A stretch of 48,001 bases of DNA from the IMG/VR virus record IMGVR_UViG_3300020469_003175, positions 1 through 48,001 of that record. One strand, 5' to 3'. This document shows, piece by piece, positions 15,610 through 37,028 of the stretch. Position numbers and translations under genes: made by a program. Under the pieces are notes generated by a model, which worked only from the letters and a program-made list of their open reading frames with translations, searched no databases and was not told the origin of the DNA. Origin of the DNA: a virus. Each line of letters opens with the position of its first letter. The stretch's first letter is position 1.

Positions 15610-15645
15610 GGATTTATGACGAGGAAGAAGGGTAATACTAAAGCG

Positions 15646-16749
15646 ATGACAAAGACAGTTTTTAACCGAGAGAAGGTTGATTTTACAAAAGAGCATATGT
15701 TCTTCGGAGCAGATCAAAACACACAGAGATATGACATATTCAAATATCCTGAGTACGATAAACTTAATCAAACAATGCTTGGTTATTTTTGGAGACCAGA
15801 GGAAGTTAGTCTACAAAAAGATAGAGGTGACTATCAGCAACTTCGTGATGAACAAAAGCATATCTTTACAAGTAATCTAAAATACCAAACACTACTTGAT
15901 AGTGTACAAGGACGTGGACCATGTCTAAGTTTTTTACCTTACTGTTCAAATCCAGAACTAGAAGGTTGTATTATTGCTTGGGACTTTTTTGAAACAATTC
16001 ACTCACGTTCATATACACACATTGTAAAAAATGTATATGCTAATCCTAGTGAAGTGTTTGATACTATCCTTGATGATGAAAAAATTATTGAACGTGCAAT
16101 TAGTGTTACAAAATACTATGACGAGTTTAATGACATTGCAAACAATTACTTTAATAAAGATCAAGGTAATCTCTATGATGTCAAGAAAGCATTATACAAA
16201 GCAATGATGACTGTAAACATTTTAGAAGGTTTACGTTTTTATGTTTCATTTGCATGTACGTTTGCATTTGGTGAATTAAAAATGATGGAAGGTAGTGCTA
16301 AGATTATTAGTCTTATTGCAAGAGATGAAGCAACACACCTTAACCTAAGTACACACATTCTCAAACATTGGGCTAAAGGTGACGATGATCCAGACATGGC
16401 TAAAATCGCAGTAGAACTTAAAGATGAAGTTTATGACCTATGGCGTGAATGTGTTGAGGAAGAAAAGAATTGGGCGAACTACTTATTCAAAGACGGAAGT
16501 ATGATTGGACTTAATGCTAATCTTCTTCATGCTTATGTTGAGTTTATTGCTAACAAGAGATTGAAAGCACTAGGACTTGATATGTTATATGATCGTCCAT
16601 TAAACACTAATCCGCTACCGTGGACACAACATTGGTTGTCAAGTGCAGGACTACAAGTTGCCCCACAAGAAACAGAAGTTGAAAGTTATATCGTTGGCGG
16701 TGTTAAACAAGACATTAACAAAGATACATTTAAGGACTTCAAACTATGA
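15646..16749 (+). CDS. nrdB: Class Ia ribonucleotide reductase beta subunit
   Basis: The radical-generating small subunit. Iron ligands sit in AWDFFETIHSR, NILEGLRF and RDEATHL, and the tyrosyl radical residue is the Tyr of HSRSYTHI. The start at 15646 (MTKTVFNREKVDFTKE) aligns residue-for-residue with the E. coli NrdB N-terminus; an in-frame ATG at 15616 would add ten residues but is only three bases from its Shine-Dalgarno. The C-terminus (KDTFKDFKL) is the usual NrdA-docking tail. It overlaps the glutaredoxin start (ATGA). Confidence 0.95.
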   Translation: MTKTVFNREKVDFTKEHMFFGADQNTQRYDIFKYPEYDKLNQTMLGYFWRPEEVSLQKDRGDYQQLRDEQKHIFTSNLKYQTLLDSVQGRGPCLSFLPYCSNPELEGCIIAWDFFETIHSRSYTHIVKNVYANPSEVFDTILDDEKIIERAISVTKYYDEFNDIANNYFNKDQGNLYDVKKALYKAMMTVNILEGLRFYVSFACTFAFGELKMMEGSAKIISLIARDEATHLNLSTHILKHWAKGDDDPDMAKIAVELKDEVYDLWRECVEEEKNWANYLFKDGSMIGLNANLLHAYVEFIANKRLKALGLDMLYDRPLNTNPLPWTQHWLSSAGLQVAPQETEVESYIVGGVKQDINKDTFKDFKL

Positions 16750-17528: not shown

Positions 17529-17802
17529 AATAGGTGATGCAGATATTGCACACTGTTCAGGAATGACTAGAGCAGTAGGAAGTAGTACTGTATTTGCTAA
17601 TGGTATTGGTATTAGTAGACAAAGTGATGTAAACACAACACACTTATTACCTGGTGTTCCTTGTCCTTCACATGCGGCTCCAATAGCAGTTGGTTCAAGT
17701 ACAGTATTTGTAAACGGTTTGGGTTGTGGTAGAGTAGGCGATGGCATCAGCGGATGCACAGCAGTTGCCGCTGGTAGTGCTAATTGTTTTGCAGGTGGTT
17801 AG
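17512..17802 (+). CDS. PAAR-repeat tail spike tip protein (T4 gp5.4-like)
   Basis: A 96-residue PAAR protein (MPSITRIGDADIAHCSG), the cone that sharpens the central spike of contractile tails and carries a metal ion near its tip. Typical repeats: GSSTVFANGIGISRQSD and GSSTVFVNGLGCGRVGD, with conserved His and Cys residues for metal binding. GGAG is 10 bases from the ATG at 17512, favouring it over a TTG at 17503. Confirms a contractile-tail phage. It meets the leftward small-gene operon head-on. Confidence 0.9.
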   Translation: MPSITRIGDADIAHCSGMTRAVGSSTVFANGIGISRQSDVNTTHLLPGVPCPSHAAPIAVGSSTVFVNGLGCGRVGDGISGCTAVAAGSANCFAGG

Positions 17803-17987
17803 GCTCTACCCCAAGCAATAGGAATATCTTTATCATCAACTACTAAATCTCTAGTATCTTTATATTGAGCAACCATTATACCTTTACCTTTGCCATCAGC
17901 AATATATTTGCAAGGTATAATTTCTCTTTCTTTGTGATATCTTTTTAAGTGGTTAGTAATAACTCCACGTGCTTTTATTCCAGCCAT
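17799..17987 (-). CDS. Small basic protein (62 aa)
   Basis: Last gene of a leftward four-gene operon. The 62 residues (MAGIKARGVITNHLKRYHKE) are basic, with an apparent beta-rich second half. AAGGA lies six bases upstream of the ATG, inside the previous gene, whose stop overlaps this start (TAATG). Its 3' end overlaps PAAR by four bases. Family not recognised; tiny early phage proteins of this kind often modulate host proteins. Confidence 0.65.
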   Translation of the reverse strand: MAGIKARGVITNHLKRYHKEREIIPCKYIADGKGKGIMVAQYKDTRDLVVDDKDIPIAWGRA

Positions 17988-18130
17988 TATTTTCCTTGTC
18001 CTCTATAAAACTTGTGACTACGTTTTTTAGATTTGTTCATTGATGAAAACTTGCAACGTGCTTTGGTACCTGCTTGACTTGTTTTCTTAGGTTGTGAAAC
18101 ATGTCCTTCAAAAGATTTATGTATTTTCAT
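17987..18130 (-). CDS. Tiny Lys/Ser-rich protein (47 aa)
   Basis: A 47-residue frame (MKIHKSFEGHVSQPKKTSQA, ending KSKKRSHKFYRGQGK). It is well supported: AGGAAAG precedes the ATG by five bases, and it fills exactly the space between two operon genes, overlapping the next start as TAATG. Very basic, without hydrophobic segments. Nucleic-acid binding is likely from composition alone. Confidence 0.65.
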   Translation of the reverse strand: MKIHKSFEGHVSQPKKTSQAGTKARCKFSSMNKSKKRSHKFYRGQGK

Positions 18131-18131
18131 A

Positions 18132-18380
18132 TTACTTTCCTAACTTTGCTTTTAAGGCCGCTCTTTTCTTTTCTAGTATTGCCGCCTGTCTTATTTTTCT
18201 ACCTAATGGTAATGATTGTATCATTTCGTATGTTCCGCCTTTTTTGGCTGTCCATTCTACTCTAACTGATTTACTTTTTGTGCTACCTTGGAAAGAGCGT
18301 ACTGCTTTCCTATAACTCATTTCTTCTTTAGTTTCTACATTGTCTCCGTCGTAGAAAGTATATGTTCTCATTTTGGCCAT
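18132..18380 (-). CDS. Small basic protein (82 aa)
   Basis: An 82-residue protein (MAKMRTYTFYDGDNVETKEE) with GGAGA eight bases before the ATG. The first half suggests a small beta/alpha domain; the C-terminus is a Lys/Ala/Leu-rich basic helix. It is separated from the next gene by one base and overlaps the previous stop by one. No named family recognised. Confidence 0.65.
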   Translation of the reverse strand: MAKMRTYTFYDGDNVETKEEMSYRKAVRSFQGSTKSKSVRVEWTAKKGGTYEMIQSLPLGRKIRQAAILEKKRAALKAKLGK

Positions 18381-18574
18381 TATTCTATCTCCGTTCTTAC
18401 AATATGTTTTCGTAAGGCTCTAACTAGTTCTTCAATTTTATCTACTACAGATATCATATCTTTATCTGTAATATATTTTTGTTTTTCTCTTAACTTGTCA
18501 TATTCTTTAAGAGGTATAGTTACTGTACTTTGTTCATTTTCAAATGTTTTATCAACTGATCTATCATCTGTCAT
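18380..18574 (-). CDS. Small coiled-coil protein (64 aa)
   Basis: First gene of the leftward operon, 64 residues (MTDDRSVDKTFENEQSTVTI) with a predicted coiled coil over the second half (YDKLREKQKYI to VRALRKHIV). GGAGAG precedes the ATG. The start region faces the tmRNA promoter; a 12-base palindrome lies between them. Function unknown. Confidence 0.65.
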   Translation of the reverse strand: MTDDRSVDKTFENEQSTVTIPLKEYDKLREKQKYITDKDMISVVDKIEELVRALRKHIVRTEIE

Positions 18575-18616
18575 AACTCTCCATTGTTAATATTGAGTAT
18601 TTTCTTGAGCATTAGT

Positions 18617-18628
18617 TATTACGTAATA
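18617..18628. promoter_or_regulatory. Palindrome TATTACGTAATA between divergent units
   Basis: A perfect 12-base palindrome in the gap between the leftward operon and the tmRNA promoter. Its position suggests an operator for a dimeric regulator; none is identified. Confidence 0.35.
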
Positions 18629-18659
18629 GATGCACACTAATAGATTCTGAAGAAAATGG

Positions 18660-18688
18660 TTGACATTTTGGTTAAAAGATAGTATAAC
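18660..18688 (+). promoter_or_regulatory. Sigma70-type promoter for tmRNA
   Basis: TTGACA, 17 bases, TATAAC. Strong host-type promoter, consistent with early expression of the stable RNA. Confidence 0.8.
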
Positions 18689-18692
18689 TATA

Positions 18693-19094
18693 TTATGTAA
18701 CGTTGAAGCAATTTAAACGCTATTCAGGACCCCGGGGCAGTACCGGGCGACTCCACCATAAACACATTTACTGAGTGTGCTTATGATGGGGTCGAAATAG
18801 GATCGACTGGTAGTTAATAGAGTTAGTGGAGTTATCCGGATCTAAGCACGGTTATCGCGAAGAAAACTTATAATTGCAAATGACAATTATGCGCCAGAAA
18901 TGGCATTAGCGGCCTAGTTTAGGCACGTAGGGGTTGGCAACTTACCTGGCAACAGAAAAGTTGCGTACTATATAGAGCAATATAAATAGTGTATATACAA
19001 AAGCACCTTTAACTATAACAAAAAGAACACAGTATAGAACGGACTCTATCCACGCCGTAGGCGACATTACATTTAAAACAAGTATATTTAAAAG
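18693..19094 (+). ncRNA. ssrA: Circularly permuted two-piece tmRNA
   Basis: Rescues stalled ribosomes by trans-translation. The gene order is permuted: the acceptor piece comes first, with T-arm CCCGG-GGCAGTA-CCGGG and CGACTCC-A-CCA ending at 18758; a hairpin spacer (18759-18787) follows; then the coding piece starts GGGGTCG (18788-18794). GGGGTCG pairs with CGACTCC (7 bp, one G-U). The tag frame 18876-18917 encodes ANDNYAPEMALAA and a TAG stop; the LAA end is the ClpX degron. Permutation is characteristic of alphaproteobacteria. The outer limits are set by promoter and terminator; exact processed ends are not visible. Confidence 0.92.
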
Positions 19095-19128
19095 ATAGGA
19101 GTGTTGGAAACAATGCTCCTATTCTTTT
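19095..19128 (+). terminator. Terminator of the tmRNA transcript
   Basis: ATAGGAGTGTTG pairs with CAATGCTCCTAT (two G-U pairs) across a GAAA loop, followed by TCTTTT. Confidence 0.85.
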
Positions 19129-19136
19129 ATCAACGG

Positions 19137-19142
19137 TAAATA
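19137..19142 (+). promoter_or_regulatory. Late promoter box TAAATA
   Basis: Lies between the tmRNA terminator and the tail fibre start; AAGGAG follows. Confidence 0.6.
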
Positions 19143-19163
19143 CAGTAAGGAGAACCATAAAAT

Positions 19164-22100
19164 ATGTCAGTAAAAGTAATCGATTCATTCCGTATAATGG
19201 CCTTTCAAAAAGCCGGGTCTAGCGTAGGGCAAGTAGTTGCAGACGCAGACAATGACACACTTACGGTAATTGGAGGCCCAGGTGTTAATTTTACTGTTGA
19301 TTCAAACTCAGATGCTGTTACATTAAGTCTACAAAGTGCAGAAGATATTGTTGCTAGTGCTATTGGTAGAGTTGAATTACGTGCAGATGATAGTACAGTT
19401 AGAATTGTACAAGGTGGTGAGAACTTAGGTATACTAGGTGACAGTGGAGTAATTAGTACTGCTTCAAATGCTGAAGGTGATATTACTATAAGTGCTAACA
19501 CTGACCTATCACAATACAACAATGCAACATCGGCTTTTATTACTGACGTTAGTGGAGACAATTTAGGCACACTTGCTGATGTTAATATAACAAGTATTGC
19601 TGACAATGAATTATTACAATATGATACAGGTACCGGTGCTTGGATCAATCAAACAATTACAGAAGCAGGATTTGCCGCAGTAGCAACTAGTGGTGGATAC
19701 GGAGATTTAACAGGCAGACCAAACATTACATTTGACGGAGACATGAGTGGTAACACTGGTGGAGCCATTGCCGCAAACGCAAGTACAGTTACACTTACTC
19801 TTGACACAGTAAACTCCAACGTTGGAACATTTAATACTGTAACGGTAAATGCTAAAGGACTAGTTACAGGTGCTGTTAATACTGCATTCGCAACAGTAGC
19901 AACGTCAGGTGACTATGCAGACTTAACTAATACACCAAGTCTAGCAGGAACATACAAATGGAACATTGCAGATGATGCTTCTGCAAGTTATCAAGTATCA
20001 ACAGATTCAACAATACAAATTTTAGGTGCTAACAGTATTTCAACAAGTGTTAACACAGGTACTGGTGCACTTACTATTACAGGACCTGCTAACGTTTCAG
20101 ACCTTACAAACGACACAGGATTTATTACTGCAAGTTCATCAGACACACTAGTAAACAAATCAGGTAACATTACTCAGTGGACAAACAATGCAGGGTATGT
20201 TACACTTGCAGATATTCCAAATAACTTTACATTGAATGTAGGTGCAGACGATTCAACCATGCGTGACATTAATGCAGGTGAAGGTTTTAAAATACTTGGT
20301 GGTACAAATATTACAACAGCAAGTGATGCCGAAGGCAATATTACAATCACAGGTCCAACATTAACTACATACCAACAAGCAATAGCAACAGCAGGTAACA
20401 CAGGTACAGGTAGTATTGGTGTAGGCGATACATTTACAGTACTAGGAACAACAGGACAAATTAAAGTTGATGCGGCGGGATTTGCTTTATCAATAAGTTT
20501 AGAAAATTTAATTAACACAGATTTAAAAGGTTCAGTATTTGCAGATGACAGTACATTACTTGTTGACGGTGTAAGTGGATCAATACCTTACAGTGTTTTA
20601 AGCGGAGCACCTACAACAGTTAGTTCATTTACTAACGATAGCAACTTTGTTTCTAGTGGTGCAAACATTACAGAATTTACAAACAATGCAGGTTACGTAA
20701 CAGCCGCCCAAGTAGGATCAACATATAATTTTCGTATAGGTGCAGATGATAGTACAATGCGTACAATTGATGCAGGTGAAGATGTTAAAGTTTTAGGTGG
20801 AACTGCAATTACAACAGCAAGTGATGCTGAAGGAAATATTACAATCACAGGTGTAGCACAAGACTTTACTTGGGGTAGTGTTACAGGAACACCAACTACA
20901 CTTACAGGCTATGGTATCACAGACGCTTATACACAAGCACAAGTAGATGTTAAGGTAGCGGCAGTACTAGACAGTGCTCCTGAACAATTAAACACTCTAA
21001 ATGAATTAGCCGCGGCACTTAATGACGATGGAAACTTCGCAACAACAGTTACAAGCAGGTTTACAAGTATTGAAAACAACTTGTTTAGCATTGGAGCAGA
21101 TGACTCTACAATGCGTGTTGTTAAACAAAGCGAAAACATTAAGATACTTGGAGGAACAAACTTAACAACTTCAAGTGATGCTGAAGGAAACATAACTGTA
21201 AACTTTGTCAATCCAGGTTACATTACTTCAGGTTTAGAAACAGGCAACAATGTAAGTGAACTTGTAAATGATGCAAACTATATTTCACAACTGTTTGTAA
21301 CAGGTGATGATAGCACAGTTAGAACAGTAGTCAAAGACGAAACAATTAAATTTGCTGGTACAGGTAACATTACAACTACAACCGATGCAGAAGGTAATAT
21401 TACTATCGACGGTGGCAATGAAACAATTACATTGTTTGGTGATGTAACAGGTACTGGTACAACATCAATAAACGTTTCACTTGCTGACAGTCCTATTGCT
21501 CCAGGTACATATAATAGAATTACATTTGATACAAAAGGGGTTGCACAAAGTGGTACACTAGTTGACTACTTAACTGACGGTTCTAATATTAGTAGATTAA
21601 CTAATGACGCAGGTTACTTAACAAACGAACAAGCAATTAACTTTAATATTGTTGGTGATGATTCAACAGGCTTTAATATGGCCAACCAAGGTACATTCCA
21701 ATTTGTAGGTACTAATGGTGTTACAATTACTGCCGCACAAGACCAAACTACTCCAACTGTTACTATTGACGGAACAAGTTTCTTACAAGCAGGCAATAAT
21801 ATAAGTGTGCTTACAAATGATTCAGGTTACTACAAAGCAGGTGATTCTATACTTGGTAACTTTACTGGTAGTGTGTTTAGTGATAACTCTACTCTAGTAC
21901 TTGACGGCTTAACAGGACAACTACATGGTACACTTAACGGAATACTTAAAGGTGACGTAAGAGGTAGCGTGTTTGCAGATGATTCTACAATGATCATTGA
22001 TGGCGGTACAGGTAAAGTAGCAACTGCACAACTTGATACATATGCAGAAGGATTACATGATTATACAATTACAGGATCATCAAGCGGAAGTTTAACAACA

Positions 22101-22451
22101 ACTACAGGCTTCCAAAAAATGAGTTACACTAAAATAGGAAACCGTTGTTTCATTAGTGGTAAACTACAAACGTCAAACGGACAGGCATTACCATCAGGTG
22201 ATATAAGAATTAGTCTTCCATTTGCATGTGCTGACTTAACTGATCAAGGCGGACAAACAGGATTTCCAATTATGCTGTATAACGTGTCTGGATTTAGTGG
22301 AGGTGTTACAGTACATGCTCAAATTGAAGAAAGTAATTCATTCTTTACTATTGTCACAGTAGACGCTAACGGAACGGACAGTACACAATCTTTTAGTGAT
22401 ATCTCCAATAGTGGTATGGAAATTTTAATTAACGGCCACTATCCCGTATAA
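19164..22451 (+). CDS. Large repeat-containing tail fibre protein (1095 aa)
   Basis: A 1095-residue fibre, almost all Thr/Ser/Asn/Gly/Asp/Val. A repeat near 38 residues long (core DDSTMR ... LGGT ... DAEGNITI) recurs at about residues 73, 359, 525, 643 and 712; a second repeat (GSVFADDST ... VDG) recurs at about 453, 895 and 933. These look like a beta-structured trimeric shaft. The last 120 residues (from SGSLTTTTGFQKM) are non-repetitive and probably form the receptor-binding tip. Late promoter with AAGGAG. The nearly identical repeats could recombine and vary fibre length. Confidence 0.85.
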   Translation: MSVKVIDSFRIMAFQKAGSSVGQVVADADNDTLTVIGGPGVNFTVDSNSDAVTLSLQSAEDIVASAIGRVELRADDSTVRIVQGGENLGILGDSGVISTASNAEGDITISANTDLSQYNNATSAFITDVSGDNLGTLADVNITSIADNELLQYDTGTGAWINQTITEAGFAAVATSGGYGDLTGRPNITFDGDMSGNTGGAIAANASTVTLTLDTVNSNVGTFNTVTVNAKGLVTGAVNTAFATVATSGDYADLTNTPSLAGTYKWNIADDASASYQVSTDSTIQILGANSISTSVNTGTGALTITGPANVSDLTNDTGFITASSSDTLVNKSGNITQWTNNAGYVTLADIPNNFTLNVGADDSTMRDINAGEGFKILGGTNITTASDAEGNITITGPTLTTYQQAIATAGNTGTGSIGVGDTFTVLGTTGQIKVDAAGFALSISLENLINTDLKGSVFADDSTLLVDGVSGSIPYSVLSGAPTTVSSFTNDSNFVSSGANITEFTNNAGYVTAAQVGSTYNFRIGADDSTMRTIDAGEDVKVLGGTAITTASDAEGNITITGVAQDFTWGSVTGTPTTLTGYGITDAYTQAQVDVKVAAVLDSAPEQLNTLNELAAALNDDGNFATTVTSRFTSIENNLFSIGADDSTMRVVKQSENIKILGGTNLTTSSDAEGNITVNFVNPGYITSGLETGNNVSELVNDANYISQLFVTGDDSTVRTVVKDETIKFAGTGNITTTTDAEGNITIDGGNETITLFGDVTGTGTTSINVSLADSPIAPGTYNRITFDTKGVAQSGTLVDYLTDGSNISRLTNDAGYLTNEQAINFNIVGDDSTGFNMANQGTFQFVGTNGVTITAAQDQTTPTVTIDGTSFLQAGNNISVLTNDSGYYKAGDSILGNFTGSVFSDNSTLVLDGLTGQLHGTLNGILKGDVRGSVFADDSTMIIDGGTGKVATAQLDTYAEGLHDYTITGSSSGSLTTTTGFQKMSYTKIGNRCFISGKLQTSNGQALPSGDIRISLPFACADLTDQGGQTGFPIMLYNVSGFSGGVTVHAQIEESNSFFTIVTVDANGTDSTQSFSDISNSGMEILINGHYPV

Positions 22452-22457
22452 TAAATA
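22451..22457 (+). promoter_or_regulatory. Late promoter box ATAAATA
   Basis: Just after the fibre stop, about 54 bases before the 22511 start. Confidence 0.5.
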
Positions 22458-22510
22458 CACATACACTAAGGCAACTTAGGCACAAAGGCATATAAAAGGA
22501 GAATCAAGGC

Positions 22511-22999
22511 ATGAAAGCAAATCTATCTTCGTCCAATCTGGACAATAAATCCAATTACGAACACAAAGTGGTAAAATTGGTAAAATCTACAATTGACAAA
22601 ACCTCTGAAGCAGTGTATTATAATACTAATACTGGTAAAACTGGTATTATTAAAACTAATGGCTTAAGGAGGCAAAACACAATGGCTAAAAGTATAGAGG
22701 TACTTGAAAACATCAAGACGATCTGCCGCAATGAATGGGGCAACGAATCGGTGTATGAAGGACCGTCAGGCAAATATAAATGGGAAGTAGGCAGAGACAC
22801 AGGCAATGGTATAATCAACGGCGTTGTACGTAAATTTGTTGCAGAAGACAAAGACGGCAATGAGATTTACACAGTAGCAGGTAGTTTCAAAATCAATAAC
22901 GACGGTGAAGTATCACGTTGGACAGGGTTACCGAGACGATTCCAAAAAGAAGCAAGTGAACTAGCAAAATTAACAAACGGTCATACTAACGGAGACTAA
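22511..22999 (+). CDS. Phage protein with possible internal second start (162/105 aa)
   Basis: A 162-residue frame from 22511 (AAAGGAGA upstream). An in-frame ATG at 22682 is preceded by a better ribosome site, TAAGGAGG, and would give a 105-residue protein (MAKSIEVLENIKTI). The first 57 residues are Ser/Asn/Lys-rich; the remainder looks like a compact domain (YKWEVGRDTGNGIINGVVRK). Either two isoforms are made or the upstream part is a separate leader. The C-terminal NGHTNG echoes a linker in NrdA. No known family. Confidence 0.7.
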   Translation: MKANLSSSNLDNKSNYEHKVVKLVKSTIDKTSEAVYYNTNTGKTGIIKTNGLRRQNTMAKSIEVLENIKTICRNEWGNESVYEGPSGKYKWEVGRDTGNGIINGVVRKFVAEDKDGNEIYTVAGSFKINNDGEVSRWTGLPRRFQKEASELAKLTNGHTNGD

Positions 23000-23000
23000 A

Positions 23001-23195
23001 ATGCAGTTTAAAGAGGCTTGTTGGAGAATGCCCAAGGAGGACCGTATGGCGCTTTGGATGAAACGAATAGAAAGTGTTGACACAGTGCTTGAAACAGCAA
23101 ACACAGGCTGGCAACTAAACTATTGGGGAAGTGTTCGAAGACAACTTGTATATCAACTATCACTGTTAAGCAACGATAAAGTTTATGAAAAATAA
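23001..23195 (+). CDS. Small Trp-rich protein (64 aa)
   Basis: A 64-residue protein (MQFKEACWRMPKEDRMALWM) with four Trp residues and amphipathic helices. It follows the previous stop by one base and its 3' end overlaps the lysin gene start by 11 bases, so it is probably co-translated with the lysin. Could influence lysis by position; no motif supports a specific role. Confidence 0.7.
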   Translation: MQFKEACWRMPKEDRMALWMKRIESVDTVLETANTGWQLNYWGSVRRQLVYQLSLLSNDKVYEK

Positions 23196-23832
23196 ATTTA
23201 AAAAGTTCTTACCAACATTATTCAGATACACAATAGTAATCACTATTATTGGAGTAGCGTATATATACGGAACTTGGCGTCCTAACGATATTGTAAAGAA
23301 CAAGATCATTCACACAGTTGAAGCAGATGTAGTCGAAACTGCACACAGTTTTGGTTTACATGAACCTTCGTTCGAATACAATAATGACGAATCATTTATT
23401 TCATCTTTAAAAACTTGTATTGATTATATCAATTTTAAAACTGCACCAAGGCAAAGAATACCAAGTGCTATTATAATAAGCATGGCAGGAATTGAATCCG
23501 CTTGGGGTACAAGTAGATTTGCAACAGAAGGCAATAATCTATTTGGAATAAGAACATGGGATCCAGATGCACCGCAACTCAAACCATTAGAAGTTCCTAA
23601 TGCTAGATTTGGAGTAAAAGTGTATAAAACAAAATGTTCTAGTGTACAGGATATGATTGATACAATTAATAACCATTCTGCATATAAAGACTTTCGTAAA
23701 GAAAGAGAAAAACAATATGATAATGGAGATTGGGATTACCGAAGATTGTTAGAAAAACTAGATGCTTGGAGTACAAATCCAAAATACGCAGGCATAGTTT
23801 TTGATACAATTATAACTAGACAATTACCATAA
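23185..23832 (+). CDS. Membrane-anchored glucosaminidase-type lysin (Bax/GH73-like)
   Basis: A 215-residue protein with one N-terminal membrane segment (about 14-30, YTIVITIIGVAYIYG) and a catalytic domain of the Bax / endo-beta-N-acetylglucosaminidase family. The motif IIISMAGIESAWGTSRF contains the probable catalytic Glu104, and NNLFGIRTW is also typical. It would cleave peptidoglycan. The N-terminal segment could be a signal anchor that is later released (SAR endolysin), which would need no classical holin. Likely the main lysis enzyme of this phage. Confidence 0.85.
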   Translation: MKNKFKKFLPTLFRYTIVITIIGVAYIYGTWRPNDIVKNKIIHTVEADVVETAHSFGLHEPSFEYNNDESFISSLKTCIDYINFKTAPRQRIPSAIIISMAGIESAWGTSRFATEGNNLFGIRTWDPDAPQLKPLEVPNARFGVKVYKTKCSSVQDMIDTINNHSAYKDFRKEREKQYDNGDWDYRRLLEKLDAWSTNPKYAGIVFDTIITRQLP

Positions 23833-23852
23833 ATGGAGTTACAATAACTATT

Positions 23853-24314
23853 ATGACAATGCATCTAGCAAGAGGGTTGACTACTCTCAACACAAAAAAA
23901 CGTAAGTCTAAAAAAGTTACAGAAGCACAACTTAAAAAGTATGAAGTGCAATGGCGTCAGCATAACAAAGAAATGCGTCGAAAGCATCTTCATCAGCATC
24001 AGTTTGAACAACTAGATGATTATATCGCTTACTGTAAAGGGCAGTACAAGCCTAAACAAACAAAAGCAGTATCAAGTGTTCCGTGGCAATATTCAAGTCC
24101 ACAAACAAGAACAACTGAAAACATTCCAAGTCTTGCATCAAAGGAAAGTTTTGCACCTGCTACTAGAAAAGAATCAATGCAATACACAGGTGAACGCAAA
24201 CTTGTAGGTATTGCTATGATGCACAAAAGTAATCTTGTTCCTGTATTTGCGGACGAAGATGATACAACAGGATCTAAACAAGCGACAGAGATCGCACAAA
24301 TGAGGAGAAACTAA
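23853..24314 (+). CDS. Conserved phage protein, Gln/His-rich (153 aa)
   Basis: A 153-residue protein beginning MTMHLARGLTTLNTKKRKSK, an opening I recognise from marine T4-like phages. The N-terminal half is a basic, Gln/His-rich helix (QHNKEMRRKHLHQHQFEQL); the middle is disordered and Ser/Thr/Pro-rich; the end carries KLVGIAMMHKSNLVPVF. No assigned function. One base separates it from the next gene. Confidence 0.75.
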   Translation: MTMHLARGLTTLNTKKRKSKKVTEAQLKKYEVQWRQHNKEMRRKHLHQHQFEQLDDYIAYCKGQYKPKQTKAVSSVPWQYSSPQTRTTENIPSLASKESFAPATRKESMQYTGERKLVGIAMMHKSNLVPVFADEDDTTGSKQATEIAQMRRN

Positions 24315-24315
24315 A

Positions 24316-24552
24316 ATGGCTGACCCAGCACTAAAGACATCCAAACTAGCATATCAAATTCTAGGAGATGTAAAAAAAGTATCGCCCAAAGCAGGAGACG
24401 TTATTGTTGTAGAACATAAACTTCCGTTAGCAACAGGTGATAGAATGAAAGTACAAAAACAATTTCAGAGTTTATTTCCAAATAATACTGTAGTAGTAAT
24501 GCAGGCAGGAATGGAAATGAAATTAGTCGGAACTGGTGGAGGACAAGGGTAG
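24316..24552 (+). CDS. Small phage protein (78 aa)
   Basis: A 78-residue protein (MADPALKTSKLAYQILGDVK) with GAGGAG before the ATG. The sequence suggests a small alpha/beta fold (GDVIVVEHKLPLATGDRMKV ... NNTVVVMQAGMEM) with a glycine-rich tail. It ends the transcript that starts near 22451; a new sigma70-type promoter follows. Family not recognised. Confidence 0.7.
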   Translation: MADPALKTSKLAYQILGDVKKVSPKAGDVIVVEHKLPLATGDRMKVQKQFQSLFPNNTVVVMQAGMEMKLVGTGGGQG

Positions 24553-24575
24553 GTTCACTTTGGTAAACTTAACCG

Positions 24576-24603
24576 TTGACAAAACCGGTAATGATGTTAT
24601 TAT
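24576..24603 (+). promoter_or_regulatory. Sigma70-type promoter for lipoprotein cluster
   Basis: TTGACA, 16 bases, TATTAT. The short inverted repeat ACCG ... CGGT spans the -35, a possible operator. Confidence 0.65.
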
Positions 24604-24645
24604 GTATATATAGGCTAAACAAACAGGCTAACAAAGGAGGCAATA

Positions 24646-25134
24646 ATGAAAGGCTTATTTAAAATCGCAGTTGCAGGAGTAATTGCAAGTACACTTGGTG
24701 CTTGTTCATCTATGACAACTATCGCAGAAAGAGACACATATGCACAACCTAAATGGTATGCGTCATGTGCCCAATCAGGAACCGAAGGATACTTTTGGTG
24801 GACTAAAGAGTATGCATATGCATGTGGGGCTGGAGAAAGTATTTTCCAACAAGCCGCAGAAGAGCAGATGTATGCTATTGCAATGAATAATTTTGCAAAA
24901 CGTATCAACGGTAACGTAAACTCAAAAACAGAACTTGAGTTTAAAAACGACAGTAAGACAACTAATACATTTATTTCTTACGTTGTAAAAGATACACCAA
25001 TTACACAACACATCGAAGAAGATAGAGCAACTTATGTATACGCAGGTAAACAATATACTTTCGTAAAACTTAGAATGCCTAAAGATGTATTTGATAGTTT
25101 GGTAGCAGAGTCTAAGACACAGAGAACAGACTAA
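24646..25134 (+). CDS. Lipoprotein, LPP20-like (162 aa)
   Basis: Has a lipoprotein signal peptide with lipobox STLGAC (Cys20). The mature part (KWYASCAQSG ... QQAAEEQMYAIAMNNFAKRI) resembles the LPP20-like lipoprotein fold. AAGGAGG gives a strong ribosome site. It is the first of three consecutive lipoprotein genes with overlapping ends under a sigma70-type promoter, so an envelope change early in infection, such as superinfection exclusion, is a reasonable hypothesis. Confidence 0.8.
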   Translation: MKGLFKIAVAGVIASTLGACSSMTTIAERDTYAQPKWYASCAQSGTEGYFWWTKEYAYACGAGESIFQQAAEEQMYAIAMNNFAKRINGNVNSKTELEFKNDSKTTNTFISYVVKDTPITQHIEEDRATYVYAGKQYTFVKLRMPKDVFDSLVAESKTQRTD

Positions 25135-25460
25135 TGAGGTGCTTGGTAATCCTATTTGGATTAGCAGTTATGACAGGATGCTCAAGCACTCCTAAGATGG
25201 TAGTTGATCAATCACAGTATTGTCATACGTCAAGTACGAAGATACTGAAAGATAGTACTACTAGTTCTAGTGAAGTGATAGTAGAGTGTACTGACAAACC
25301 TAATCCTAAAATGACACTACAAAGTGGCTTTGATGGTCGCAAGTGTGGATGGGCAAGACAAAGTTATCCTGTTGCAGGAAAATTAACTACAAGTTATACA
25401 ATGGCTTGTCAACTACAAGATGGGAGTTGGACTTATGTACCGAACGTTATTGCTCAGTAG
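25134..25460 (+). CDS. Lipoprotein with 17-kDa-antigen-like C-terminus (108 aa)
   Basis: Starts on the previous stop (TAATG). Lipobox VMTGC (Cys16). The C-terminal pattern RKCGWARQSYPVAGKLTTSY ... ACQLQDGSW resembles the C-R-x-x ... C-x-x-DGSW end of the rickettsial 17-kDa surface-antigen family of alphaproteobacteria. Probably an outer-membrane lipoprotein acquired from a host. Role in infection unknown. Confidence 0.75.
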   Translation: MRCLVILFGLAVMTGCSSTPKMVVDQSQYCHTSSTKILKDSTTSSSEVIVECTDKPNPKMTLQSGFDGRKCGWARQSYPVAGKLTTSYTMACQLQDGSWTYVPNVIAQ

Positions 25461-25866
25461 TGTACTATTAATTTTAGGTGCATGTTCTTCACACAATTAT
25501 AATAGTCCTGTAAGTAGCAACATGTCTATAAACAGTAAGTACAATCACACAGGTAATAGTGTGTCGACATCTGTTACAAGGATTATAGAAAACACAGTGT
25601 GGCGTATGCCACCAGAGGCGGCAAGTAAGCATACACAATCAATTTACTTTGCTATTAACAACATGACTGATGGCGAATCGATTAATTGGCAAGATGCAAA
25701 AAGCAACACATCAGGTAGTGTTAAAATTGTTATGACAAATACATACGGTGGTTCGTATTGTAGATTACTTAACAGTCAAGTATGGTATGAAACTAAGACT
25801 AGAAATTTGAGCGAGTATGCTTGTTCAACTAACATGGGAAAGTCTTGGACATTTAGACCATATTAA
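25435..25866 (+). CDS. Lipoprotein with 17-kDa-antigen-like C-terminus (143 aa)
   Basis: GGGAG eight bases upstream favours the ATG at 25435 (MYRTLLLSSVLLILGAC, lipobox Cys17) over 25420. It overlaps the previous gene by 26 bases. The C-terminal region (TNTYGGSYCRLLNSQVWYET ... CSTNMGKSWTFRPY) has the Tyr-Cys-Arg and second-Cys spacing of the 17-kDa surface-antigen family, as in the preceding gene. The pair may be distant paralogues. Confidence 0.75.
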   Translation: MYRTLLLSSVLLILGACSSHNYNSPVSSNMSINSKYNHTGNSVSTSVTRIIENTVWRMPPEAASKHTQSIYFAINNMTDGESINWQDAKSNTSGSVKIVMTNTYGGSYCRLLNSQVWYETKTRNLSEYACSTNMGKSWTFRPY

Positions 25867-25869
25867 ATA
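25864..25869 (+). promoter_or_regulatory. Late promoter box TAAATA (distal)
   Basis: Overlaps the stop of the lipoprotein gene; one of two boxes before the 25915 gene. Confidence 0.4.
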
Positions 25870-25901
25870 AGTACCAGGTTTACTAACACCAAATATAAGG
25901 T

Positions 25902-25907
25902 TAAATA
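25902..25907 (+). promoter_or_regulatory. Late promoter box TAAATA (proximal)
   Basis: TAAATA is seven bases from the ATG at 25915, giving a predicted leader of about two bases and no Shine-Dalgarno. Confidence 0.5.
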
Positions 25908-25914
25908 CAAGACT

Positions 25915-27846
25915 ATGTTATACGGTATACTTACACTATTATCTGCCTTAACAATTTCGGCAGTGGCTATATACTATTCCATTGCAGGTCTAGTGGCTAT
26001 TTTTGCCGCGGCGGCAATTCCCATTATTATTATGGGTACTGCATTAGAAATAGGTAAACTTGTTACCGCAGTATGGTTACACAAGTATTGGCAACAAGCA
26101 ACATGGTGGCTTAAAACATATCTCACAACCGCAGTTATTGTTCTCATGTTTATTACAAGCATGGGTATATTTGGATTCTTATCTAAAGCACATATTGAAC
26201 AAACAAGTGCAGGCGAAGAAAGTGTTGCACAAGTAGAACGTCTTGCAGGTGAGATTGAAAGACAACAAGATATTATTGTTCGTGCTGAAGAAAAAATTAA
26301 AAAATTAGAAACAAGTACAGTTGGTGGCGATGCTAACATACAATCACAAATAGATGCTGAACAAGAACGTATTGACAAAGCATATATTAGAGTACAACCT
26401 GCTATTGATGAACAACAAAAAATTATTGATAGTCAAGCAACACTATATAAAAATGAACTTGCTAAAATAGATGCTGAGATGGAAACTCTACAAGGTTACA
26501 TCGATAGTGGTGATACTAAAAAAGCACAACAAATGATTGGTGCTAGTGCTGACGGTATCTTTGGTAAAAAGACTGCTGACAAGATTGGTGACTGGCAAGA
26601 AGAAAAAGCAAAAGAACGAAACGAACTTATTGATAAGATTGAACGTGCTAGTAACAATCCTCAAGCAAAAGCGGCCGCAGAAGAAATTAAACGTCTACGT
26701 ACTACTGTAGAACAACAAATAAAAGATTCAAATGCTCTTATTAATCGTTTACGTAATCAACTAGGCGATACTGATAAGACAGCAGACATTGACGCACAAG
26801 TAGATGCACAAAACTTAAGAATTAAAAATGCTAACACAGAAATAGATACACTAACAGATGAGAAGTATGCACTTGAAGGTGAGTACAGAAAACTTGAAGC
26901 AGAAGTAGGGCCTATCAAATACATTGCAGAATTTGTTTATGGTGAAAATGCTACACAAAACATGTTAGAAGAAGCAGTACGTTGGGTTATTATTATAATC
27001 ATATTTGTATTTGATCCACTAGCAGTACTATTACTAATTGCATCACAATATACATTCCATTGGAGAAACACGGGAGGTAGTTTGCCCCCAAAGCACGATC
27101 CGGACAACGATCCGGATAACACTCCAACAGTTACACAAGAAGAGTGGGACGAAGCACACAGACAAAACTATGAGTTTGATCGTGCTAAAGCAATTGATGC
27201 CAATATTCCCCCGGACACAGAAGAAAAGAAAGAGTCCGTAATATCTAAAAAAAAGACTGACCAATATCTCCTTTGGGAAGACATAGATCCTGAACCGCAA
27301 GAAACTGTAGAACAAGAAGAAATTAATCCGCAGAAAACTGTTGATCCAAATCAAATAGAAATTGATTTTGATACAGAGCCTAAGAAAAAGTATACTAAAA
27401 CAATAAATCCGTTTTTCTATGCTGACGAAAAAGTAAATGATGTTGATGATACTATTGACGATATGAAAGACAAAGGGCAATGGCCGGATCAAGCATCAAA
27501 AGAATCACAACAAACAGTTACTCAACAACTTGAAAAGATTGATGACTTAGATGCTTGGAATAGTTGGGTAGAGAAAGCAAACGAAGAAGCAGAAAATAAT
27601 CCAGAAGATTTTAAACAAAATTCAGAACAGAATGAAAATAGTGTGTTTAACAAAATAAACAAAGCAAGACAAAACTTTGATCCTAGCAAGATTAAAGAAC
27701 TAGAAATTACTGAAGAACAGTATAGAGACGCAAGTCAAAAGCATATCATATCTCTTATAGAAAGGTTAAAGGACGGACTAATTAAAGTAGACGACCTTAC
27801 AGAAACTGAAGCAAATAAGATTACTACATTATTAGATAAGAATTAA
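25915..27846 (+). CDS. Large membrane coiled-coil protein (643 aa)
   Basis: A 643-residue protein conserved in marine T4-like phages. Two or three N-terminal membrane spans (about 5-40 and 65-90) precede a long coiled coil (about 100-340), interrupted by ASADGIFGKKTADKIGDWQ, which resembles a peptidoglycan-binding (PG_binding_1) motif. Another membrane span (about 355-375, VIIIIIFVFDPLAVLLLI) leads to an acidic, disordered C-terminal region of 250 residues. It could organise the host inner membrane or act as a tape-like tether; neither is shown. The predicted transcript has nearly no leader. Confidence 0.8.
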   Translation: MLYGILTLLSALTISAVAIYYSIAGLVAIFAAAAIPIIIMGTALEIGKLVTAVWLHKYWQQATWWLKTYLTTAVIVLMFITSMGIFGFLSKAHIEQTSAGEESVAQVERLAGEIERQQDIIVRAEEKIKKLETSTVGGDANIQSQIDAEQERIDKAYIRVQPAIDEQQKIIDSQATLYKNELAKIDAEMETLQGYIDSGDTKKAQQMIGASADGIFGKKTADKIGDWQEEKAKERNELIDKIERASNNPQAKAAAEEIKRLRTTVEQQIKDSNALINRLRNQLGDTDKTADIDAQVDAQNLRIKNANTEIDTLTDEKYALEGEYRKLEAEVGPIKYIAEFVYGENATQNMLEEAVRWVIIIIIFVFDPLAVLLLIASQYTFHWRNTGGSLPPKHDPDNDPDNTPTVTQEEWDEAHRQNYEFDRAKAIDANIPPDTEEKKESVISKKKTDQYLLWEDIDPEPQETVEQEEINPQKTVDPNQIEIDFDTEPKKKYTKTINPFFYADEKVNDVDDTIDDMKDKGQWPDQASKESQQTVTQQLEKIDDLDAWNSWVEKANEEAENNPEDFKQNSEQNENSVFNKINKARQNFDPSKIKELEITEEQYRDASQKHIISLIERLKDGLIKVDDLTETEANKITTLLDKN

Positions 27847-27847
27847 T

Positions 27848-28240
27848 ATGCCAAATAAAATAAACTTGATCACACCACCCGATAACTTATACAACAACAA
27901 CTTTTCTTTAAATCTAATCAATACTACAGATGCTGAAAAAGAAAAGATTAGTAACTACTTGGGCAAACAAAAAGATGATAGAGAAATAAACTTGTATGCA
28001 TATACAAATGAAAGTAATCCTACTTGGTTACTTAACAGAGTAAATGGTGAAATTAAAACCTATATTAATCTTGACAATACTAGTGATATTAGTGTACAAT
28101 ATACTAGTTACATATTAAGTAAGAGTAACGTTTACTACTACACAGAGGATAAAAATATGAAAGAAGTTTACAGTCTGATTAGTACAAACAATGTAACTGG
28201 CATCAATAATTTTTTAGATAAGGTATACAATGAGCAATAA
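27848..28240 (+). CDS. Conserved phage protein (130 aa)
   Basis: A 130-residue Asn/Tyr-rich soluble protein (MPNKINLITPPDNLYNNNFS), one base after the previous stop and overlapping clpX by 11 bases. I recognise the opening (INLITPPD-LYN) from marine T4-like phages, where it has no function. It sits between the membrane coiled-coil gene and clpX and is probably part of one transcript. Confidence 0.75.
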   Translation: MPNKINLITPPDNLYNNNFSLNLINTTDAEKEKISNYLGKQKDDREINLYAYTNESNPTWLLNRVNGEIKTYINLDNTSDISVQYTSYILSKSNVYYYTEDKNMKEVYSLISTNNVTGINNFLDKVYNEQ

Positions 28241-29483
28241 ACAACAAGATCACCACTGTCACTTTTGTGGCAAAGATAAAAAAGAAGTAACCAAATTAAT
28301 TGTCGGTGACGACAGTGCAATTTGTAATGAATGTATTGATTTATGTGTAACTATTTTAACTAAAGAAAAAGTCAAAAGTATTCATACTAAGAAAGAAGCA
28401 TTTGATACAACTAAACTTAATCCAAAAATGATTAAAGAGTATCTTGATCAACATGTAATTGGACAGGAACAAACAAAGTTAGCAATGAGTGTTGCAGTAG
28501 CACAACACTACAAAAAATTAAACAATCCAAGTGATGATATTAAATTAGATAAAACTAACGTAATGGTTATGGGTCCAACAGGATCAGGTAAAACATTAAT
28601 TGCACAAACTATTGCAGACTTCCTTAATGTACCGTTTGCTATTTGTGATGCTACAACACTTACAGAAGCAGGATACGTTGGTGATGATGTAGAAAGTATT
28701 ATTACTAGGCTAGTAACAGAAGCAGATGGAAACATTGAACTAGCACAACGTGGTATTGTGTTTGTAGATGAAATTGATAAAATTACAAAAAAATCACAAA
28801 ACGTTTCAGTTACAAGAGATGTTAGTGGAGAAGGTGTACAACAAGGTCTTTTAAAGATTATTGAAGGAACTAAAGTTAGAGTTAATGCAGGACAAAACAA
28901 ACGTAAGCATCCAGGTGCTGAAATGGTAGACATTGATACAACAGATATATTATTTGTAGTTGGTGGTGCATTTGTTGGATTGGATAAACTACTATCAGAA
29001 CGTACAAATCAAAACGGAATGGGTTTTGGTGCAGACATACAAGATCCAAATGCAGAAGCAGACTTATCACAAATACTTCCAGAAGACTTAATCAAGTACG
29101 GTTTCATTCCAGAGTTTATTGGTCGTTTTGGCTTAATTACATACGTAAATCAGTTGACACAAGAGCAACTATGTAGTATTATTAAAGAGCCTAAGAACAG
29201 TTTAGTAAAACAATATAGTTATTTGTTTGGACTAGACAATATAAACTTAGAGTTCACTGATGGAGCAATTAAAGCGATTGCTTCCAAAGCACAAGAACTT
29301 AAGACAGGTGCTCGTGGACTTAAAAAGATTATAGAAGAGGCATTGTTACAGTATCAATATGACGCTGAGGATTTAGCGGCAGAAGGTTTGGAGACTATAA
29401 CGATACAAGAAGAAACGATAACTAATAGCGACACACCGTTACTGGTATATAGAAACAAAAGGACAAATGGCAAAAAACATTAA
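28230..29483 (+). CDS. clpX: ClpX ATP-dependent unfoldase
   Basis: A full-length 417-residue ClpX. It has an N-terminal zinc-binding domain (Cys10, Cys13, Cys32, Cys35), Walker A GPTGSGKT (115-122), the GYVG pore loop (148-151), Walker B VFVDEID (177-183) and an RKH-type loop KRKHP (224-228) that recognises ssrA tags. The ClpP-docking loop reads MGF (264-266) in place of IGF, a mild change that should still dock. No clpP is visible, so it would work with host ClpP. With the phage tmRNA tag ending LAA, it forms a complete tag-and-recognise pair. Confidence 0.95.
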   Translation: MSNKQQDHHCHFCGKDKKEVTKLIVGDDSAICNECIDLCVTILTKEKVKSIHTKKEAFDTTKLNPKMIKEYLDQHVIGQEQTKLAMSVAVAQHYKKLNNPSDDIKLDKTNVMVMGPTGSGKTLIAQTIADFLNVPFAICDATTLTEAGYVGDDVESIITRLVTEADGNIELAQRGIVFVDEIDKITKKSQNVSVTRDVSGEGVQQGLLKIIEGTKVRVNAGQNKRKHPGAEMVDIDTTDILFVVGGAFVGLDKLLSERTNQNGMGFGADIQDPNAEADLSQILPEDLIKYGFIPEFIGRFGLITYVNQLTQEQLCSIIKEPKNSLVKQYSYLFGLDNINLEFTDGAIKAIASKAQELKTGARGLKKIIEEALLQYQYDAEDLAAEGLETITIQEETITNSDTPLLVYRNKRTNGKKH

Positions 29484-29733
29484 GGTAAGAACAATGGCAC
29501 AAGTTAGAGACCCCAACGAAGCGGGCCTGAGTGTAGTAGTACGTGGCGAAGGTGAACGAGAGTTTATGAAAGCCATGCGTAAGTTTAAACGTAAAGTTGC
29601 TGAAAGCGGAATTATTAATGACTTCCGAGACAAGCAGTACTATGAAAAACCTAGCGATAAGAAACGCAAGGCTAAGAAGCAGGCAGTACGTAGGCAACAA
29701 CGTGCATTGTTAGATGAAAAAAACAACTACTAA
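29467..29733 (+). CDS. rpsU: Ribosomal protein bS21 homologue
   Basis: The segment VVVRGEGEREFMKAMRKFKR, followed by KVAESGIINDFR and YYEKPSDKKRKAKK, matches the bS21 signature, with a basic tail. bS21 sits near the mRNA exit/anti-Shine-Dalgarno region of the 30S subunit; phage copies have been reported in pelagiphages and could bias initiation toward phage mRNAs. The start is 29467 (AAGGA upstream) or 29494. It overlaps the clpX stop by 17 bases. Relevant to the leaderless transcripts predicted here. Confidence 0.88.
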   Translation: MAKNIKVRTMAQVRDPNEAGLSVVVRGEGEREFMKAMRKFKRKVAESGIINDFRDKQYYEKPSDKKRKAKKQAVRRQQRALLDEKNNY

Positions 29734-29745
29734 TAGGCAATAGAA

Positions 29746-30285
29746 ATGGCAACACATGCAATGATAGACCTAGAAACTCTAGGCACTAAACCAGATTGTG
29801 TGATACTAACATTAGGCGCAATCAAATTCGACCCTTTCACTAATGAAGAACCACACAGTGGTCTTTATCAAAAACTTGACATAGACGAGCAAGATAAATT
29901 AAAAAGAACACAAGATGAAAGCACTATCGAATGGTGGGGTAAGCAAACCCAGAGTGTGCAAGAAGAAGCCTTTTCAGAAGAAGGGCGTATTAGTTTAGAT
30001 CAAATGACAAAAGAGATCAACAAGTTTCTTGTTGGTGTTGATGTAGTATGGGCTCAAGGGCCTGCTTTTGATATTGTTATATTAGAAAATTTATACCAGC
30101 AATTAGGATTACCTATACCGTGGAACTTTTGGCAGATAAGAGATAGTAGAACATTGTTTAGTTTACTATCTAAAGATCCACGTAAAGCAATTCAGCAAGA
30201 AGCACACAATGCCTTGGCTGATTGTTACTATCAAGCATTATCGGTACAGACCGCATACAAGGAGTTAAACTTAAATGCGAATTGA
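29746..30285 (+). CDS. dexA: 3'-5' exonuclease, DexA-like (DEDD)
   Basis: A 179-residue RNase H-fold exonuclease of the T4 DexA / Rv2179c-like type. Motif [10 protein letters not shown] (Asp8, Glu10), motif II in [14 protein letters not shown], and motif [13 protein letters not shown] give the DEDDh metal and catalytic residues. Probably processes DNA or RNA 3' ends. The 3' end overlaps the GMP reductase start by 11 bases. Confidence 0.85.
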
Positions 30286-31435: not shown

Positions 31436-31447
31436 TAAGGAAAGACA

Positions 31448-32002
31448 ATGATTAAAGGATTTAAAATCCCAAATACAACGTTCCAAGTTAGAACTGGCGA
31501 TTCGGTCTTAGATGACGGTTGCAGTTTTGATGAAGGTATGTGGACAACAATGACAACAGATGACTACTTCAAAGGTAGACGTGTTGTGTTGTTTAGTTTA
31601 CCAGGTGCGTTTACACCAACATGTACATCAACACAATTACCAAGTTTTGAAGAAAATTATAATACTATTAAATCATTAGGTATTGATGAAGTATATTGTT
31701 GTTCAGTTAATGATACATTTGTAATGAATGCATGGGCTGAGATACTTAAAGTTAATAATGTAAAAGTTATTCCAGATGGTAGTGGAAACTTTACACGTTA
31801 CATGGGTATGCTTATTGGTAAGAATCATAGAGGCTTCGGAAATAGAAGTTGGAGATACATGGCTGTTATTAATGACGGCGTTGTAGAACAATGGTGGCAA
31901 GAGCCAGGCATTAACAATGACGGTTCAGATGCTGATCCATATATTGAAACAACTCCAGAAAATATGATGACTTACTTACAGACTGCATCAACTCCAGAGT
32001 AA
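31448..32002 (+). CDS. Peroxiredoxin, Prx5 type
   Basis: A 184-residue peroxiredoxin with PGAFTPTCTSTQLP (peroxidatic Cys59) and CSVNDTFVMNAW, both typical of the Prx5 family. It reduces peroxides using glutathione/glutaredoxin or thioredoxin. Cys25, Cys84 and Cys85 are candidates for a resolving Cys. Other iron and redox enzymes in the window would make peroxide control useful. A strong terminator follows. Confidence 0.92.
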   Translation: MIKGFKIPNTTFQVRTGDSVLDDGCSFDEGMWTTMTTDDYFKGRRVVLFSLPGAFTPTCTSTQLPSFEENYNTIKSLGIDEVYCCSVNDTFVMNAWAEILKVNNVKVIPDGSGNFTRYMGMLIGKNHRGFGNRSWRYMAVINDGVVEQWWQEPGINNDGSDADPYIETTPENMMTYLQTASTPE

Positions 32003-32032
32003 GTATCACACAATTAGCATTAACTTAAATAG

Positions 32033-32066
32033 AACTGTTAGAGGCATGGTGTTTCTAACAGTTTTT
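32033..32066 (+). terminator. Terminator after peroxiredoxin
   Basis: AACTGTTAGA pairs perfectly with TCTAACAGTT and is followed by T residues. Confidence 0.8.
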
Positions 32067-32115
32067 AACGACCGCTAAGATTACATCGAAGCATTAAACA
32101 ACAGGAGAAATTACC

Positions 32116-36590: not shown

Positions 36591-37028
36591 ATGACAAGAC
36601 TAACAACTCTAGACCTACCTAACTTCCAAAGAGCCACAATTGGCTTTGATAGACTGTTTAACGAAATGGAAAGACAGTTCGCAAATAGTCCAAACGGAAA
36701 CGGGTATCCCCCATACAATATAGCACAAATCAACGATGATGAGTATATGATCTCATTAGCAGTTGCAGGCTTTGGTATGGACAACCTTTCAATTACCACA
36801 GATGGTGATCAATTGAAAATCGAAGGAACTGCTCCAAAAGGAGATGAAGATGTCAACTACCTACACAAGGGTATTGGCGGACGCAACTTCCGTAGAGAGT
36901 TTACACTCGCTGACCATGTTAAAGTAGCAGATGCTAATCTTGAACTAGGTATGCTGAATGTGCATTTAGTACGTGAAGTACCAGAAGCACTAAAGCCAAA
37001 GACTATTAAAATTAATAGTCCTAAGTAA
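36591..37028 (+). CDS. Hsp20 / IbpA-like small heat shock protein
   Basis: A 145-residue holdase chaperone with the alpha-crystallin domain at about 35-130 (YMISLAVAGFGMDNLSITTD, KIEGTAPKG, LELGMLNVHLVREVPEALKP). It is the IbpA-like type common in T4-like marine phages. It has both an early and a late promoter plus a structured leader and its own terminator, indicating expression throughout infection. Probably protects aggregating proteins, and could help head assembly. Confidence 0.93.
   Translation: MTRLTTLDLPNFQRATIGFDRLFNEMERQFANSPNGNGYPPYNIAQINDDEYMISLAVAGFGMDNLSITTDGDQLKIEGTAPKGDEDVNYLHKGIGGRNFRREFTLADHVKVADANLELGMLNVHLVREVPEALKPKTIKINSPK

Follow-up and report, generated by a model that had tools for sequence, protein, structure and literature searches.

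tmRNAs are present in about 2% of sequenced phages, and their two-piece form has been established in marine phages, with 53 cases described (PMC9004378). The Methylophilales phage Melnitz bears an alpha-type tmRNA and infects an OM43 gammaproteobacterium (PMC9004378). In this sense, phage-borne permuted tmRNAs are already published, and the RNA described here, taken alone, is a further example: it lies in a 48,001-nt stretch of viral DNA (the window) and, like those of Melnitz and Mosig (PMC9004378), it is an alpha-type permuted tmRNA of a marine T4-like phage. Melnitz also shares the CsgG pore gene with the window, and its tmRNA scores 106.7 bits against RF01849 and encodes the tag ANDNYVPVDYALAA (126.3 bits and ANDNYAPEMALAA in the window). 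It differs in that its spacer measures 142 nt instead of 29 nt, and in that a glutamine riboswitch (RF01739, 52.8 bits) is situated 3' of the tmRNA, which was absent at 17800-20200 of the window even at E values up to 5. Alphaproteobacterial ssrA of the Caulobacter type (RF01849) has in common with the window copy the permuted order, the acceptor stem formed between the pieces, the GCAGUACC T-loop and an LAA-type tag; the window copy is phage-borne, and core identity reaches about 61% at the nearest sampled bacterium. Permuted tmRNAs above the Rfam cut-off were also found in the Caulobacter phages phiCbK and CcrColossus and in cyanophage S-SSM7 (NC_019405 103283-103601; NC_019406 132369-132662; NC_015287 21008-21227).

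Clp proteins are known from another set of phages. Several jumbo phages (Atu_ph07, PMC6102473; AP-J-162, PMC11242549; PA5oct/Callisto; phage G) carry clpX on the genome, some of them with ibpA and clpS close by; these papers assign ClpX to DNA replication or virion assembly, and a link between tag and ClpX is absent from them. More generally, jumbo-phage work treats Clp proteins and tmRNA separately (PMC7824862, PMC6102473, PMC11242549). Compared with these jumbo phages, the window phage stands far closer to the pelagimyophages. Both components occur together in Sinorhizobium phage Phosso (PV764938.1), which has a permuted tmRNA with a 410-nt spacer besides ClpX, ClpS and ClpP, and in Bacillus phage G (JN638751.1, 187784-189744 and 412060-412371), with a standard tmRNA and clpP-clpX. 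Finally, pelagiphages possess a tetrapyrrole cassette of 5-aminolevulinate synthase, heme oxygenase and PcyX-like reductase (PMC11480375); the HemO-PcyX/AlaS contigs of that paper, in which tmRNA is unmentioned, hold AlaS, heme oxygenase and the reductase together, as does the window at 34940-39306.

What is new here is the combination of a tmRNA with phage ClpX, ClpS and ClpP, and a gene-bearing spacer in the closest relatives of the window phage. We found no paper in the open-access literature linking a phage tmRNA tag with a phage ClpX, nor an earlier report there of genes in tmRNA spacers. The joint presence of a tag-encoding RNA and of ClpX, ClpP and ClpS in a single lineage of marine phages offers a direct, testable answer to why phages carry tmRNA, and a gene-bearing spacer would mean that a protein gene can occupy the part of a permuted tmRNA that is otherwise discarded.

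Identity and anatomy of the tmRNA

A cmscan search against Rfam assigned 18662-18969 (+) to alpha_tmRNA (RF01849) with 126.3 bits and an E value of 3.5e-34, the curated cut-off being 50 bits. The model tmRNA_permuted (RF04321) matched 18697-18917 with 112.8 bits, whereas the beta permuted model (61.9 bits, cut-off 84) and the cyano model (25.9 bits, cut-off 70) both stayed below threshold. ARAGORN, as a separate call, reported a permuted tmRNA at 18665-19008 with the tag ANDNYAPEMALAA, and both this program and direct reading give the permuted order on the DNA, namely acceptor piece, spacer and coding piece (Table 1). The first-pass annotation of this DNA, made from the sequence alone, had proposed a phage-encoded permuted two-piece tmRNA with these two pieces, a tag and a 7-bp acceptor stem between them, and had named the alphaproteobacterial covariance model as the check; the element is hereby confirmed: it is a permuted, two-piece tmRNA of alphaproteobacterial type, and it is complete. 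All seven acceptor-stem pairs form between the two pieces, and the third is G-U (G3-U70), the tRNA mark for alanine. The T-loop GCAGUACC is typical for alphaproteobacterial tmRNA in the RF01849 alignment, and the tag frame is open, with the alanine resume codon GCA, an LAA end and a TAG stop.

The hairpin formerly assigned to the spacer does fold, although not as a separate element: spacer and acceptor stem make a single hairpin (-24.1 kcal/mol, z -6.2, 0/200 shuffles), so that the 29-nt spacer extends the acceptor helix. The sigma70-type promoter and the terminator attributed to the gene were both recovered. A consensus promoter scan missed the former because it requires T at the final position. 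Similar TTGAC..17..TATAAC arrangements precede the gene in four sister phages (L084, L111, L210, L333); among diverged relatives the promoter is found in 13 of 72 distinct upstream regions, several of the 13 being near-copies, against 2.2% of control stretches. Conservation is thus weak in the latter, and it is mainly the window with its close kin that supports the promoter.

Table 1. Features of the window and of one overlapping contig (G085)
Feature	Position	Strand	Basis or remark
nrdB, syntenic marker ~2 kb upstream of tmRNA in relatives	15616..16749	+	synteny in relatives
sigma70-type promoter: TTGACA 18660-18665, 17-nt spacing, TATAAC 18683-18688	18660..18688	+	direct reading
acceptor piece (3' part of tmRNA, encoded first)	18697..18758	+	ends ACCA; 5' limit = RF04321 start, approximate; direct reading
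T-arm CCCGG-GGCAGTA-CCGGG, loop GCAGUACC	18731..18747	+	alignment to RF01849
acceptor stem 3' strand CGACTCC, incl. U of G3-U70	18748..18754	+	direct reading; covariation in relatives
ACCA end of acceptor piece	last base 18758	+	direct reading
spacer between pieces, 29 nt, without ORF	18759..18787	+	direct reading, fold
coding piece (5' part of tmRNA, encoded second)	18788..18969	+	3' limit approximate: RF01849 18969, ARAGORN 19008
acceptor stem 5' strand GGGGTCG	18788..18794	+	direct reading
tag frame GCA...TAG, peptide ANDNYAPEMALAA	18876..18917	+	ARAGORN; synonymous and stop-codon variants in relatives
intrinsic terminator: 13-pair stem 19094-19123, then T-rich CTTTTAT	19094..19130	+	terminator scan, fold
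ClpX, 417 aa	28230..29483	+	motifs
5-aminolevulinate synthase	34940-36130	-	tetrapyrrole cassette of pelagiphages
small heat-shock protein, IbpA-like	36591..37028	+
ClpS adaptor, 101 aa	37136..37441	+	motifs intact
heme oxygenase	38067-38606		tetrapyrrole cassette of pelagiphages
PcyX-like bilin reductase	38599-39306		tetrapyrrole cassette of pelagiphages
ClpP paralogues (L373, L374)	G085 18047-18610 and 23858-24451		right of window

Selection on the stem and the tag

In relatives fetched through neighbouring protein genes, and not by tmRNA sequence, the acceptor stem covaries across the separate pieces: pair 4 is G-C or C-G, pair 5 U-A, G-C or C-G, and pair 6 C-G or U-A, while G3-U70 and ACCA are kept in 27/27 cleanly parsed relatives. 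The tag is similarly constrained in its ends, since 54 of the 58 distinct viral tag frames finish with LAA and 53 start at GCA; three DNA frames, distinguished by synonymous substitutions and by stop-codon changes, encode ANDNYAPEMALAA itself. Compensated stem changes and the prevalence of the LAA end thus argue that the tmRNA is under selection.

The phage and its host

The 48 kb of the window form part of the genome of a T4-like phage and include nrdA/nrdB, tail fibre, CsgG pore, heme oxygenase, PcyX-like bilin reductase and 5-aminolevulinate synthase genes. Its CsgG is 63% identical to that of Pelagibacter phage HTVC008M, and its bilin reductase 51% to that of Pelagibacter phage Mosig. A SAR11-like host is probable on the evidence of these neighbouring genes, which correspond to the pelagiphage set of PMC11480375. 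An alphaproteobacterial host had previously been deduced from the permuted form; the RNA is indeed of the alpha type, but the deduction fails, since beta and cyano lineages are also permuted and the alpha-type tmRNA of Melnitz is found in a phage of OM43 (PMC9004378). A query with AlaS against genome contigs, in search of the host, returned only enzymes about 30% identical.

Two other genes of the window deserve mention. An asparaginyl-tRNA-synthetase-like protein (PF00152) is encoded at 43488-44410, with a tRNA-Asn gene 8 nt further on, and the annotation of its homologues from P-SSM2 and P-SSM7 reads "tRNA ligase". A Rieske-type ring-hydroxylase gene (44493-45557) is absent from the otherwise 99%-identical contig G085, and is a recent gain or loss.

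Clp proteins and the proposed pathway

ClpX and ClpS, both encoded in the window, went unnoticed in the first-pass annotation. The ClpX is intact, with C4 zinc finger, Walker A, GYVG pore loop, RKH, GMGFGA ClpP-docking loop and sensor 2, and the order clpX-ibpA-clpS is shared by most of the ClpX loci that were retrieved from viral contigs, and by Pseudomonas jumbo phages. Upstream of clpX, and kept with it in most loci, a 643-aa membrane and coiled-coil protein (25915-27846) matches no PHROG and gave only a weak Tetraspanin match. Contig G002, 99.1% identical to the window over 17794-33320, holds tmRNA and ClpX on one molecule. ClpP lies outside the window itself, in contig G085, which belongs to the same phage population, overlaps 37005-48001 at 98.7-98.9% (about 1.1 kb excepted) and extends to the right; its ClpP1 has an intact Ser/His/Asp triad, and ClpP2 is divergent. 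Judging by these sequences, one phage population encodes a tag, a putative LAA-reading unfoldase, a peptidase and an adaptor. SmpB was absent from the window and from 22 other phage records (23 searched), so host SmpB would have to serve.

We regard the locus, with good confidence, as an ssrA gene that works in a T4-like, pelagimyophage-like virus and whose tagged chains would be destroyed by phage and/or host ClpXP. The gene would be transcribed from its own sigma70-type promoter as a single precursor, from which host tRNA-processing enzymes would cut out the 29-nt spacer, leaving an acceptor RNA and a coding RNA joined by the 7-bp acceptor stem. Once charged with alanine via G3-U70, and with host SmpB, the tmRNA would enter ribosomes stalled on broken mRNA and release them; the unfinished protein would gain -(A)ANDNYAPEMALAA, whose LAA end is the expected signal for ClpX. 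Since ClpX and ClpS, and on the overlapping contig two ClpPs, are phage-encoded as well, destruction by phage and/or host ClpXP is the most likely fate of such chains. Ribosomes and amino acids would thereby go back to virion production while host mRNA decays, and the phage may run its own ribosome rescue and disposal of tagged proteins during the destruction of host mRNA.

The coupling between the phage tag and the phage ClpX is plausible on this gene content. On the other hand, the phage tmRNA might free ribosomes and tag proteins through the host system only, with phage ClpX, ClpS and ClpP engaged in unrelated work, such as virion assembly or the removal of host regulators, and their co-presence a coincidence in a large, gene-rich phage. 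We consider this a serious possibility, with chances somewhat below even. It is favoured by the distance between the genes, which stand 9-18 kb apart and not in one operon; by Atu_ph07, Callisto and SCTP-2, which have ClpX and no tmRNA above the cut-off; and by long relatives with tmRNA but without ClpX, namely G087 (203 kb), G088 (116 kb), G089 (153 kb) and G076 (56 kb). Host ClpX must therefore suffice in the latter, and phage ClpX may serve other substrates. Against it, the tags end in LAA, the ClpX signal, 7 of the 8 viral contigs that encode ClpX and measure 200 kb or more also carry a permuted tmRNA, and ClpX is joined with a standard-form tmRNA in phage G, Lak-B2 (borderline, 47.3 bits) and LR756511. 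When phage records of 200 kb or longer were compared, 11/15 ClpX-positive ones had a tmRNA against 3/15 ClpX-negative ones (p 0.009), in non-random sets whose positives are partly related and include one borderline case (47.3 bits) and whose negatives were hand-picked; for named phages alone the figures are 4/7 and 3/15 (p 0.14).

An obligatory coupling was rejected: it is contradicted by the long tmRNA-positive relatives without ClpX, and the large-phage comparison is suggestive at most. The tmRNA is the constant part and ClpX the optional one; none of the best 60 phage matches to ClpX came from Melnitz, Mosig or HTVC008M. In Escherichia coli, ClpS diverts ClpAP from ssrA substrates, and ClpS therefore need not share the tmRNA pathway.

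It has also been considered that the phage RNA acts as a competitor, displacing host tmRNA so that stalled host products receive a different tag and go to a different protease. A published precedent is the CDS-less tmRNA of phage DS6A, which inhibits the endogenous tmRNA (as cited in PMC11915505), and the variety of phage tags (58 distinct frames) would fit. Nonetheless, we judge this role unlikely: the tag frame is intact and has the canonical LAA end, and degradation is thus kept, not avoided.

Origin and distribution

A pattern scan detected permuted tmRNAs in at least 120 viral stretches, and in 33 of 41 kin records, chosen through nrdB or csgG, the tmRNA is situated 3' of nrdB. The earlier remark that phage tmRNAs are uncommon agrees with the figure for sequenced phages at large, but has to be corrected in view of the established marine two-piece cases and of the near-constant presence in this viral group. 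Two ORFs upstream of the tmRNA, 18132-18380 (-) and 18380-18574 (-), are conserved in kin, and no Pfam family was found for either. Within a sample of 385 alphaproteobacterial genomes, the closest bacterial tmRNA core ranked after 73 phage sequences, and in the core tree 19 alphaproteobacterial sequences lie beyond a branch with support 98/91, on the opposite side from the phage copies; the deeper branching is unsure because the core is short.

At integration sites, phages frequently possess tRNA-like genes. A recently acquired, drifting passenger copy of a host ssrA, for which that habit speaks, or bacterial contamination of the contig, is nevertheless very improbable and was rejected, given that many viral contigs, recovered from separate metagenomes, share this locus, and given the selection on stem and tag, the distance to the nearest sampled bacterium and the supported branch separating the bacterial copies.

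Short tmRNA-like matches, with no annotated feature beneath, were also seen in Ruegeria/Roseobacter and Rhodobacter phages (MH015255.1 9361-9408, KT870145.1 9256-9293, MW677525.1 32297-32332, OP186293.1 3419-3454).

A gene inside the tmRNA spacer of sister phages

Contig G004 matches the window at 94-98% identity in the tmRNA region, and its spacer of 205 nt holds a 62-codon ORF. In 31 contigs among the best 80 of 145 viral relatives, the gene for this 62-aa protein lies precisely in the interval from ACCA to GGG of a permuted tmRNA; it starts 12-15 nt past CCA and stops one base before the mature 5' end of the coding piece, and both tmRNA models still match at full length across the insert. 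Nested copies are found, among other loci, at L210, L443-L453, L465, L489, L494, L497, L508 and L521. The nested gene is under purifying selection, the median dN/dS of 22 distinct copies being 0.18 (225 pairs, which are not independent). Bacterial tmRNA spacers in the sample measure at most 48 nt.

The protein also occurs outside the spacer. Among the same best 80 of 145 relatives, non-nested copies often lie directly 5' of the tmRNA, 12 within 3 nt and 9 others at 419-480 nt, and five stand beside tRNA-Thr and/or tRNA-Leu; in the isolate Melnitz the homologue is gene 85, whose end lies 3 nt ahead of the tmRNA. The protein matched neither a Pfam nor a PHROG family and is confidently modelled as beta-beta-alpha-beta (pLDDT 89); the fold gave no significant match, the best E values being 0.013 (viral) and 0.23 (PDB). 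When the gene is nested, AAGGA within the spacer arm TAAGGACATTGAA is its likely ribosome-binding site; since this arm also pairs with the ORF at its 3' end, folding of the tmRNA and translation of the ORF may be mutually exclusive.

A gene within the spacer of the window itself was ruled out. This spacer is the short form, and the spacer gene thus concerns its relatives. A broader reading, which we put forward tentatively, at close to but somewhat less than an even chance, is that the permuted tmRNA gene of this phage group would yield three products from one transcription unit and supply one half of a tag-and-destroy pathway private to the phage: its spacer would provide a slot for small protein genes (empty in the window, at 29 nt), the tRNA-processing cuts would free a mini-mRNA, and phage ClpX/ClpP would degrade the tagged protein.

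The claim of a spacer gene leaves out three phages: G008 (L211) and Melnitz, whose spacer ORFs extend into the coding piece, and Phosso, with a doubtful 51-aa frame. The ORF of Melnitz (L523; spacer at 46077-46218 of its record) is led by a Shine-Dalgarno sequence. Other, unrelated spacer ORFs were observed as well, encoding 68 aa in G034 (L209), 24 hydrophobic aa in G025 (L205) and 42 aa, assigned to PHROG 9048, in G061 (L337).
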